From J088 sp003695505 [NCBI: Candidatus Dadabacteria bacterium] (GTDB lineage Bacteria; J088): a stretch of 7,781 nt of DNA. Shown here piece by piece: positions 1,164-4,033 of the stretch. The first letter of the stretch is position 1, and each line of letters starts with the position of its first letter. The DNA lies in assembly GCA_003695505.1 (NCBI GenBank), contig RFIY01000309.1, positions 1 to 7,781 of the forward strand, in the 5' to 3' direction. Both the position numbers and the translations under genes were made by a program. Below the pieces are notes generated by a model, which was given only the letters and a program-made list of their open reading frames with translations, was not told where the DNA came from and made no database searches.

Positions 1164-1583
1164 TCAGGATTCCGAAACGTCGACACCGAGCCGTTGCAGC
1201 AGGTCCGCGACGCGTGCGCGGATTTCGTCGCGCACGGCACGGAACCCGTCGTCGTCGAGTGTTTTCGGATCGGTCAGTCCCCAGTCTTCGCGAATCTTCG
1301 CCGGTATGAAAGGGCATGCATCGCCGCAGCCCATGGTAATGACGGCGTCGTAGCCGTCCTGCGGCACTTCGTCCAGTCCCAGGGAGCGGTGGCCGCGCAT
1401 GTCGATGCCGACTTCGTCCATGAACTGGATCGCGCGCGGGTTGACCTGGCCGGATGGACGGGAACCGGCGCTGTAGACGTCGACGCGGTCACCGCCGAGC
1501 GCGCGGGCGAAGGCCTCGGCCATCTGGCTGCGGTTGCTGTTTTCGATGCAGACGAAGAGGATGCGGGGGCGGGATGCATTCAT
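1164..1583 (-). CDS. arsC: Arsenate reductase, thioredoxin-coupled LMW-phosphatase type
   Basis: The 139-residue product belongs to the low-molecular-weight phosphatase fold and should reduce arsenate to arsenite in the cytoplasm. The P-loop CX5R is C12-I-E-N-S-N-R18, followed by S19. The resolving cysteines of the relay are probably C86 and C90 (MGCGDACP), spaced four apart rather than seven as in the plasmid pI258 enzyme. The general acid is probably D105 in the D105-P106 pair. Final electron donation by thioredoxin is a family expectation, not visible here. The start ATG overlaps the acr3 stop as ATGA, with an AAGGAA ribosome site at 1591-1596 seven bases upstream, so the two are probably translationally coupled. 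Its product, arsenite, is the substrate of the Acr3 pump encoded just upstream. It is the last gene of the operon. Confidence 0.93.
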
Positions 1584-2611
1584 GCAGGCGTTCCTTGTGG
1601 TGTGGCGTCGGGAAAGGTGTCGCGCGTGCGGTTGGCGATGCGAACCAGCGACAGCATCACCGGGACTTCGATCAGCACGCCGACGACCGTGGCGAGCGCC
1701 GCGCCCGACTCGAGGCCGAACAGGCTGATGGCGACCGCGACGGCCAGTTCGAAAAAGTTGGATGTGCCAATCAGCGCGGCCGGGGCGGCGATCGTGTGCG
1801 GCAGGCGCAATAGCCAGGCCGCAAGATAGGCGAGGATGAAAATACCGTAACTCTGGAACAGCAGCGGAATCGCGATCATCAGGACGCGCCCCGGCTGGCT
1901 CGTCAGCGTGTCGGCCTGGAATGCGAACAGCAGCACGACCGTCAGGATCAGGCCAATGACCGAAGCCGGCTTGAGCCGCTGCGCGAGGGCTTCGACCTCG
2001 TCGGGTGTGCGTCCACGCTGCGTCAGGATGCCCGCGACCAGGGGAATGACGATATAAATCAGCACCGACAGGACGAGGGTTTCCCAAGGCACGGTCAGAT
2101 CGGTGACGCCCAGGAGCCAGGCGACGATCGGGGCGTAGGCAAAGACCAGAATCAGGTCGTTGACCGTGACCTGTACCAGAGTGTAGCCGGCGTCGCCGTC
2201 GGTCAGGTTGCTCCAGACGAAGACCATCGCCGTACAGGGCGCGGCGCCGAGCAGGATCATTCCGGCGATGTACTGGGCCGCCTCTTCGGCCGGTACCCAG
2301 TTGGCAAAGACGTAGCGAAAGAACAGGATGCCGAGCCCTGCCATCGTGAACGGCTTGATCAGCCAGTTGACGACGACGGTCAGTGCGAGTCCAGCCGGCG
2401 CCTGGCGGGCGTCACGCAGCGCGGACGGGCGCACGCGCAACATCATCGGATAGACCATCAGCCAGATCAGAACCGCGACGACCAGATTGACATGCGCAAC
2501 CTCGAGGCTGGCGAGCGCCTGCGCGGCTCCTGGCGCGGCGATGCCGAACCCGACCCCGATCAACATGGCGGCGGCGACCCAGAAAGACAGAAATCGTTCA
2601 AACAGTCCCAT
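1580..2611 (-). CDS. acr3: Acr3-type arsenite efflux permease
   Basis: This 343-residue, strongly hydrophobic protein has about ten predicted membrane segments, the usual size for bacterial Acr3 (also called ArsB in some annotations, though unrelated to true ArsB). The family-defining cysteine is C126 in [15 protein letters not shown] within the fourth membrane segment, and the conserved late glutamate is E315 in LIEVPVML. Both are known to be needed for arsenite transport in studied homologues. The motifs NWLIKPF (82-88) and QVTVND (147-152) also fit the family. It should export As(OH)3 across the inner membrane using the proton gradient. A perfect AGGAGG at 2618-2623 lies six bases before the ATG. 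The gene overlaps the end of the regulator by 14 bp and the start of arsC by 4 bp, so all three form one transcription unit. Confidence 0.95.
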
Positions 2612-3020
2612 CGTCTGCCTCCTGTTCCAGCAGGTCGAAAAATCGGCATTCCGTGCCAGGTTCGTGGTTCGAGCAGTCTTGTACGAATGCAGCCAGTGCG
2701 CTTCGCATCTGTTCGAGTTCGGCGAGTTTGTGCTCGATGTCGGCGAGGTGTCGGGCTGCCAGTGCCGTTACGCCGCTGCAGTCGCCGTTTGCCGTGCGCT
2801 GCAGATCGAGCAGGTCGCCGATCTGCTCGAGCGAGAATCCCAGCTTCTGTGCGCCGAGGATAAAGCGCATGCGCCGCAGTTCGGCATCGCCAAAGTCGCG
2901 GTAGCCGCCGTGGTGGGTCGATGCTCCGGAGCGCACCGGGCGCAACAGACCGCGCCGCTCCCAGTAGCGAATGGTGTCGACGGACACGCCGACGGCGGCG
3001 GCTGCTTCACGAATGCGCAT
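2598..3020 (-). CDS. MerR-family metal-responsive regulator of the ars operon
   Basis: A 140-residue MerR-family protein, the usual length for the ZntR/MerR metal sensors. Residues 1-70 are the winged-helix DNA-binding domain, with the typical opening [19 protein letters not shown] at 15-26 and GGYRDF at 38-43. A long dimerisation helix runs over about 81-113. The ligand region has C81, C116 and C125, spaced 35 and 9 residues apart as in the mercury sensor MerR (C82, C117, C126 from memory), plus H119. ZntR has a similar but not identical layout. The protein should bind the palindrome in its own promoter and activate by DNA distortion. It is the first gene of the operon, so it is probably autoregulated. 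The inducer cannot be read directly: arsenite or antimonite is suggested by the neighbours, but zinc, cadmium, lead or mercury sensing is possible from the family. Confidence 0.9.
2618..2623 (-). promoter_or_regulatory. Strong ribosome binding site of acr3
   Basis: AGGAGG on the minus strand, six bases before the acr3 ATG and inside the coding end of the regulator gene. It is the strongest Shine-Dalgarno match in the operon. Together with the leaderless start of the regulator it suggests that the pump is made in larger amounts than the regulator from the same mRNA (inference). Confidence 0.8.
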
Positions 3021-3026
3021 GCGTTC

Positions 3027-3057
3027 AGGATAACTCTGGAGTCAGCTCCAGAGTCAA
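3027..3057 (-). promoter_or_regulatory. MerR-type promoter and operator of the merR-acr3-arsC operon
   Basis: On the minus strand a perfect -35 box TTGACT (3057-3052) and a -10 box TATCCT (3032-3027) are separated by 19 bp, the overlong spacing typical of MerR-activated promoters. A 22-bp palindrome at 3033-3054 has perfect 9-bp arms ACTCTGGAG and CTCCAGAGT around 4 central bases; it begins at the last three bases of the -35 box and fills the whole spacer. From memory, the E. coli zntA promoter has the same half-sites and the same TTGACT and TATCCT boxes, with a 20-bp spacer. The -35 box begins four bases after the epimerase stop codon. The -10 box ends six bases before the regulator ATG, so the expected transcription start falls at or next to the start codon. 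Confidence 0.9.
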
Positions 3058-3061
3058 GCGA

Positions 3062-4033
3062 TCAGGCGGCCACGGCGCGGTTCAGGTCGCAGAGGGTCGG
3101 ATCGTGCGGCGGCCAGTCGCCGCGCATCAGTGCCAGTTTCTCTTCGTAGGCCTGGCGCATTGTGCGTGGCCGCCAGTTCAGGTCGTGTTGCGCGCGATGA
3201 ATCTGATAGGAACGCCGCACCGGCAGTGGCACAGGGATCTGGACGCGGGGGATCTGGCCGCCGGCCAGCCGCCAGGCGCGAACGTGATCGACGTAATCGA
3301 CCCGGTTGGGCGGGGCGGCGATGTTGTAGGCTCTGCCGTTGGCGCTGTCGCGTTCGGCCATGCGCATCATGGCTTCGGCCAGGTCACCGGCATAGACCGC
3401 CGGGAATCTCCAGTCGAGCGGCTTGACCGCTACCGGGCTGCGCATCAGCTTCTCGAACGCCGCCGAAAAACCGTCGCGGCACCAGGCGCCAAAAATCATC
3501 TGCGGTCGGGCGATCGCGACATGGATGTCGGCGTCCGCCGCAATCTCCAGCGCGACGCGCTCGGCCTCTGCCTTCGTCTTGCCATACCAGCGCGTGCGGT
3601 TGGGTTTGTCGTCGGACTGCCAGAGCGGGTCGTCTTCGCCGTAATCGTGATCCGGCTTCGGACGATAGACCGAGGCCGACGATGTCAGAACCGCACGCTG
3701 CACGCCCGCCTCGGCTGCCGCGGCAAAGACGCGGCGCGTGCCTTCGATGTTCGTTTCGGCGAGTCGCGCCCACGATTGACGACCGATCGAGATCAGCGCC
3801 GCATTGTGGTACAAAACGTTGGCGTCCCGCAAGGCCGGCGCAATCGTCGCCGGCTGCGTCAGGTCGAAGCGGCGTAGCTCCAGATTCGGGTGCGTGAATG
3901 CCAGCCCGTTGTCAGGATTACGGGCAAGGGCGACGACGTGCGCGCCGCGCTCGAGCAATACTCGGACGAGGTAATGGCCGACGAATCCGGTGGCACCGGT
4001 GACGGCGACGGTCTGGTCGCGGAGGCTGAACAT
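3062..4033 (-). CDS. NAD(P)-dependent epimerase/dehydratase-like protein (extended SDR)
   Basis: The 323-residue product is an extended short-chain dehydrogenase of the epimerase/dehydratase superfamily. The Rossmann nucleotide-binding motif is TGATGFVG at 12-19, followed by the beta-strand RFDL at about 55-58 and HNAA at 76-79. The catalytic site shows TSSAS at 117-121 and Y150-G-K-T-K154, the YxxxK pair. The substrate-binding C-terminal half is too variable to name the substrate: a nucleotide sugar, a hydroxysteroid or dihydroflavonol-type ketone, or another alcohol are all possible. No membrane segment is seen, so it should be cytoplasmic. It lies 75 bp downstream of the HMG-CoA-lyase-like gene in the same direction, so they may be co-transcribed. 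Only a weak -10-like TAAACT is seen before the start. Its stop codon almost touches the ars promoter, so read-through into the ars operon is possible. Confidence 0.85.
   Translation of the reverse strand: MFSLRDQTVAVTGATGFVGHYLVRVLLERGAHVVALARNPDNGLAFTHPNLELRRFDLTQPATIAPALRDANVLYHNAALISIGRQSWARLAETNIEGTRRVFAAAAEAGVQRAVLTSSASVYRPKPDHDYGEDDPLWQSDDKPNRTRWYGKTKAEAERVALEIAADADIHVAIARPQMIFGAWCRDGFSAAFEKLMRSPVAVKPLDWRFPAVYAGDLAEAMMRMAERDSANGRAYNIAAPPNRVDYVDHVRAWRLAGGQIPRVQIPVPLPVRRSYQIHRAQHDLNWRPRTMRQAYEEKLALMRGDWPPHDPTLCDLNRAVAA

Follow-up and report, generated by a model that had tools for sequence, protein, structure and literature searches.

A MerR-family regulator heading an acr3-arsC operon in Candidatus Dadabacteria: a candidate arsenite-responsive activator

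In the window, that is, the whole stretch of 7,781 nucleotides analyzed, a MerR-family regulator gene is placed between a promoter and the arsenic resistance genes acr3 and arsC, and all of these elements form a compact minus-strand operon (3057-1164). The operon and its dedicated control by the MerR-family protein are well supported. The best explanation is probably a dedicated MerR-type activator of this efflux operon that responds to a soft metalloid. As judged from the operon content, As(III) and/or Sb(III) would be our best guess for the chief inducer, held with the same moderate confidence, since the sole operator found genome-wide controls arsenic genes alone. Bacterial arsenic sensing has been described mainly through ArsR-family repressors.

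Organization of the operon and its promoter

The features of the operon are listed in Table 1. The original prediction of one operon with overlapping genes had the coordinates right; according to them, merR and acr3 overlap by 14 nt, and acr3 and arsC by 4 nt. Acr3 scored 376.7 bits against TIGR00832 (cut-off, 282.8). Its sole cysteine, Cys126, is found in GAAPCTAM, Glu288 is found in NFFELAVA, and an AGGAGG Shine-Dalgarno sequence precedes the gene. For ArsC, which belongs to Pfam LMWPc, arsenate reductases were the best matches; with the best NCBIfam model, TIGR02689 (arsenate reductase), the score was 104.4 bits, below the cut-off of 157.6. By sequence, merR-acr3-arsC can be classified as an acr3-type arsenic resistance operon with an Acr3 transporter and an ArsC that falls below the equivalog cut-off. 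The operon contains no ArsR gene and its first gene is merR. The idea that a MerR-family regulator takes the place of ArsR on acr3-arsC was thus borne out, both by this gene content and by the unique operator before merR.

Table 1. Features of the merR-acr3-arsC operon in the window
Feature	Position	Strand	Properties
-35 element TTGACT	3052..3057	-	promoter scan
Operator, perfect 9-4-9 dyad ACTCTGGAG-CTGA-CTCCAGAGT	3033..3054	-	scan; half-sites identical to E. coli zntA
-10 element TATCCT	3027..3032	-	19 bp from -35; 6 nt before merR ATG
merR, MerR-family regulator	2598..3020	-	140 aa; C81, C116 and C125
acr3, arsenite efflux transporter	1580..2611	-	343 aa; TIGR00832 above cut-off
arsC, LMW-phosphatase-type arsenate reductase	1164..1583	-	139 aa; Cys12, Cys86 and Cys90; PF01451 above cut-off

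Upstream of the operon is an ORF (3062-4033) that looks epimerase-like by eye. Its end and the -35 element are separated by 4 bases, and transcriptional read-through from this ORF into the operon is possible. Downstream of arsC, no gene was recognized. This region contains imperfect direct repeats (361-456/880-975 and 270-328/804-862; 89% and 76%), perhaps a genome-wide intergenic element.

The MerR-type promoter that had been proposed was found before merR, with the perfect dyad inside a promoter spacer of 19 bp, as in the MerR superfamily, where this spacer is 19 or 20 bp. A 22-bp palindrome in a 20-bp spacer, the form of ZntR sites, was not found, since the half-sites are equal but the spacer is 19 bp. 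When the 60 upstream bases were shuffled (mononucleotide shuffles), the combination of a -35 element at 5/6, a -10 element at 4/6, a 19- or 20-bp spacer and a 9-bp dyad arose in 0 of 200,000 shuffles; the 9-bp dyad alone arose in 41 of 50,000. With the same thresholds and 8/9 paired bases, both strands of the window yielded this single site (index 4725 on the reversed strand, corresponding to window position 3057). A generic sigma-70 scan of the window with 16-18-bp spacers gave 0 sites, as expected from the 19-bp spacer of the merR promoter. A chance neighborhood or an annotation or assembly artifact, with merR functionally unlinked to acr3-arsC, is very improbable: the assembly is fragmented (395 contigs), but the genes overlap on a single strand, and merR is directly preceded by the unique dyad promoter.

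Since the -10 element ends so close to the merR ATG, transcription starting at the usual distance would begin at the ATG itself. The sequence therefore predicts a leaderless merR message. We also compared 10 distinct self-directed promoters among 60 MerR ORFs, some of which are the same gene in overlapping loci. The distance from the -10 element to the first in-frame start was 6-8 nt in six of the 10 promoters and at least 22 nt in the other four. The short spacing is seen in the window (3020-3032) and at L054, L060, L063, L019 and L127. A leaderless start may be common among merR-first operons.

Position of the regulator in the MerR family

The regulator possesses the MerR HTH (PF13411) and MerR-DNA-bind (PF09278) domains, both above cut-off, as do members of the MerR superfamily. 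The top-scoring NCBIfam model was Hg-MerR (TIGR02051; 96.7 bits, below the 150.85 cut-off). The scores were also below the cut-offs with the models of ZntR (PRK09514, 91.8 of 143 bits; TIGR02043, 87.4 of 167.95), CueR (TIGR02044, 86.3 of 147.4) and CadR-PbrR (TIGR02047, 67.5 of 151.45). Among solved structures, the best match was the mercuric resistance regulator 5crl (E 2.3e-19), and CadR was next.

A tree of 42 rows was constructed with ZntR and PbrR among the references, PbrR representing the CadR/PbrR side. Before rows were counted, we removed matches with an aligned length below 90 positions as well as duplicates of the window locus and of the L004/L005 loci. The regulator did not fall firmly inside a ZntR or PbrR clade, a placement that would have spoken against the original prediction, but the tree gave it no firm place elsewhere either: it is in an open 36-row fork (branch 0.91) and forms no supported clade with ZntR, Hg-MerR, PbrR or CueR.

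The regulator has exactly three cysteines, with spacings of 35 and 9. Their likeness to those of mercury-sensing MerR, which had been pointed out, holds for the residues and their distances. However, the pattern is not specific to mercury: C-35-C-9-C is present in 22 of the 42 aligned rows, including Hg MerR and PbrR. We therefore rejected the spacing as a mark of a mercury-type site; because it occurs in PbrR and roughly half of the relatives, it cannot indicate a metal. In the alignment, the spacing of ZntR is 35/10, and CueR has Ser at the first cysteine position, where the regulator has Cys. The Cys at position 81, as in +2 sensors according to PMC9909328, counts for a soft-metalloid activator, but the one type that it argues against is CueR. 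The loop of the regulator also has His119 and acidic residues.

Some MerR-family sensors are highly selective, and this speaks against a broad thiophilic sensor, in which the three-thiolate site would answer As(III), Sb(III), Hg, Cd and Pb and the arsenic operon would be the sole output. We regard such a sensor as rather improbable, even though His119 and the acidic residues of the loop speak for it, Hg and Pb sensors have the three-cysteine set in common, and ZntR responds to Cd, Pb and Zn according to the available part of PMC1526738.

By identity, the nearest relatives of the regulator (45-50%) are in a nine-row clade, and their neighborhoods, seen in part, contain mercury or heavy-metal genes. 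These include a MerA tail (L048), an HMA-type protein below the cut-offs (L052) and an outer-membrane efflux protein (L047). The notion that the operator marks ZntR function was rejected because a ACTCTGGAG-like half-site (7/9 bases paired) precedes L060, a regulator of another clade, and a further regulator of that clade, at L123/L075, adjoins merT-like and MerP/HMA-like genes.

The operator and the gene arrangement in this and other genomes

The genome of the window comprises 2.83 Mb and is 84.5% complete. When as many as 3 mismatches were allowed, the operator pattern was found genome-wide at the window site and at one further place, which has 3 mismatches and is inside an ORF; the reversed-pattern control gave 0 sites in the genome. 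No second match of the regulator was obtained in the genome at E 0.001. Acr3 had one match, and two more proteins matched the broader SBF family only. Two P-type ATPases were found, and both scored best with copper among the metal-specific models: L130 reached 610.6 bits with copper and 413.6 with cadmium (cut-off, 313.5), both above cut-off, and L131 passed the cut-off with copper (414.7) but narrowly missed it with cadmium (311.9).

HTH_5 matches were detected at two places, L109 and L110, on contigs other than that of the operon. L109 (645-1037) is an ArsR/SmtB-type metalloregulator above the NF033788 cut-off and possibly acts in trans on the operon; its presence and the incompleteness of the genome count against the arsenic-sensor reading. 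The ORF at L110 is, by eye, presumably GntR-like. An ELCVCD-like motif is typical of classical ArsR; the cysteines of L109 do not form such a motif. Among Pseudomonadota proteins, identity to the Acr3 of this genome reaches 67%.

Among 398 Pseudomonadota genomes, the operator with at most one mismatch occurred in 10 and never before acr3. In nine of the 10 genomes, it preceded a zntA-like gene. In the tenth (G375), it preceded a ZntR-class merR, which was above the cut-off with one model (170.3 bits; cut-off, 143) and below it with a second (161.4 of 167.95), followed by an SO_0444-family Cu/Zn exporter (Pfam ArsP_1). At this locus (L132, 1501-3020), the same half-sites head an operon of the ZntR-class merR and the SO_0444-type ArsP_1-family exporter.

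The occurrence of the operator before zntA-like genes weighs most heavily against an arsenic sensor because the site indicates ZntR-like recognition. It fits a regulatory capture, in which a Zn/Cd/Pb- or Hg-sensing MerR stands before acr3-arsC and a co-occurring metal, not arsenic, induces the operon. The half-sites are of the ZntR type, which also leans against the mercury comparison of the original prediction; however, they are set in a spacer of 19 bp, versus 20 bp for ZntR sites. The 35/9 spacing is common to PbrR and a Hg MerR, but the regulator is below the ZntR, CadR-PbrR and MerR cut-offs. The relatives sit in mercury or heavy-metal clusters, but in this genome the operator was not found before any other gene. 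As for metal export, copper models gave the best scores for both P-type ATPases, which argues against capture, and the cadmium-family score of L130 counts against the arsenic-sensor reading. In Pseudomonas, cross-talk from mercury to arsenic has been reported: the accessible text of PMC10433974 describes a predicted mercury-type MerR2 site in front of an arsR gene and an increase in arsenic-resistance proteins in the presence of mercury. These results indicate metal cross-talk without arsenic and, within the limits of that text, also count against an arsenic sensor. Since DNA and metal are recognized by different parts of the protein, the operator type leaves the inducer undecided. Overall, we consider capture unlikely.

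The MerR-led acr3-arsC arrangement was uncommon in our samples. In the 398 Pseudomonadota genomes, the regulator had a match (1e-14) in 235 and Acr3 (1e-40) in 223. At the nearest 30 Acr3 loci of this phylum (1.5-kb flanks), MerR was found at 0, a detectable ArsR at 22 and neither at eight. A single ArsR query alone gave 21 of the 30; ArsR counts from single-sequence queries are lower bounds. At 29 Acr3 loci from other phyla, MerR was found at one (L019), a detectable ArsR at 16 including L019, and neither at 13. At L019, MerR is downstream with its own promoter, and ArsR precedes acr3. When the 29 nearest-MerR loci (L047-L075, 1.5-kb flanks) were inspected, acr3 adjoined two (L071 and L072), and an ArsR-like gene was present at L049 only, which has no acr3 in its 20-kb stretch. 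We also chose by eye six Pseudomonadota genomes among the matches listed (G490 and five others in which ~14 kb or less of a single contig holds both genes), and all had an ArsR-like ORF beside acr3.

For plasmids, a joined MerR and Acr3 query was used, and the best 40 of at least 5000 records were considered; 42 records had at least 80% coverage. In four of six records taken from these 40 (L118, L120, L121 and L122), an ArsR-type gene is before acr3 and no MerR was annotated or detected. L117 has both ArsR and MerR, the latter paired with its own cation-diffusion partner. In L119, a MerR adjacent to merT is ~1 kb away from an unannotated acr3-like ORF, and no ArsR was detected. Of the close merR/acr3 pairs opened (the six genomes, L019, L117 and L119), 8/9 have an ArsR-like gene. 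A contig scan yielded two relatives of the regulator with 38% identity (L004 and L005), and neither of their 10-kb loci contains acr3. No relative was found in the viral contigs scanned with the regulator, and in phage records Acr3 had matches in 10 of 50,697, all below 60% identity. Among the genomes searched, a merR-acr3-arsC operon of this kind was found in one only, which also counts against an arsenic sensor.

At L125 (5104-5469), L117 (6192-6551) and L143 (4940-5323), an additional acr3 remnant that matches query residues 207-328 was observed directly 3′ of merR in a merR/cation-diffusion pair, next to an acr3 with an ArsR-like gene. In L125 and L117, the remnant is ~70% identical to the query.

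Proposed activation and comparison with known systems

By analogy with the MerR family, from which activation by DNA distortion and binding across the dimer are carried over, the soft-metalloid activator would work as follows. Without inducer, the MerR dimer would keep the over-long 19-bp promoter inactive. C81′ of one monomer, together with C116 and C125 of the other, would bind a soft metalloid ion, and the metalloid-bound dimer would untwist the spacer, so that RNA polymerase transcribes merR, acr3 and arsC together. ArsC would then reduce arsenate, and Acr3 would export the arsenite. In the accessible sections of PMC9909328, the Hg ligands, which span the dimer, are Cys117, Cys126 and Cys82′, and the main +1/+2 selector is described as the residue that the other monomer contributes. 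The regulator has the equivalents of these three cysteines and no further cysteine. Three cysteines also hold As(III) and Sb(III) in AfArsR, according to the available part of PMC11212059.

In the open-access literature, as far as its texts were available, no MerR-family arsenic sensor was found described, and in the accessible portions of several papers on MerR and arsenic, MerR and acr3 are separate genes. It is conceivable, although we put this forward only tentatively, that the regulator is the first naturally occurring MerR to sense As(III)/Sb(III): a separate lineage combining ZntR-type DNA recognition, a bare three-cysteine arsenite site, promoter distortion and a predicted leaderless, self-activating merR message. 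If so, activation by an arsenite-responsive MerR-type protein would represent a second route to arsenic sensing, reached by convergence, and it would reveal how a single three-thiolate site can be adapted from planar Hg(II) to pyramidal As(III). Biosensor design would gain an activator with leak and dynamic range unlike those of ArsR.

Compared with ZntR/zntA of E. coli, the MerR fold is shared, and the half-sites (ACTCTGGAG and CTCCAGAGT) and both promoter hexamers are identical; against the zntA operator read from the genome record, 20 of 22 bases are equal and two differ. Unlike ZntR, the regulator acts on a 19-bp spacer instead of 20 bp, and its target is acr3-arsC. ZntR moreover contains a CC pair, and its C-to-C distance is 10. 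In the available part of PMC1526738, zntR genes are not autoregulated and are mostly apart from zntA, ZntR sites are ACTCTGGAGTCGACTCCAGAGT in 20 bp, and proteobacterial mer sites are TCCGTAC-4-GTACGGA in 19 bp. MerR-family sites other than those of ZntR have 19 bp in the accessible text of PMC3431237.

With Hg-responsive MerR, the regulator shares the three cysteines at the 35/9 spacing, which is not diagnostic, and the 19-bp spacer of proteobacterial mer promoters. However, its operator differs from the mer site given in that source, and the window contains no mer genes. PbrR is similar in C-35-C-9-C and, in the sources as available, in the 19-bp spacer; in contrast to PbrR/CadR, the regulator is below the cut-off, and the window contains neither a P-type ATPase nor a CDF protein as its partner. 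Finally, ArsR-controlled acr3 operons have the same effectors, acr3 and arsC, whereas here ArsR is absent and an activator-type promoter replaces the repressor site.
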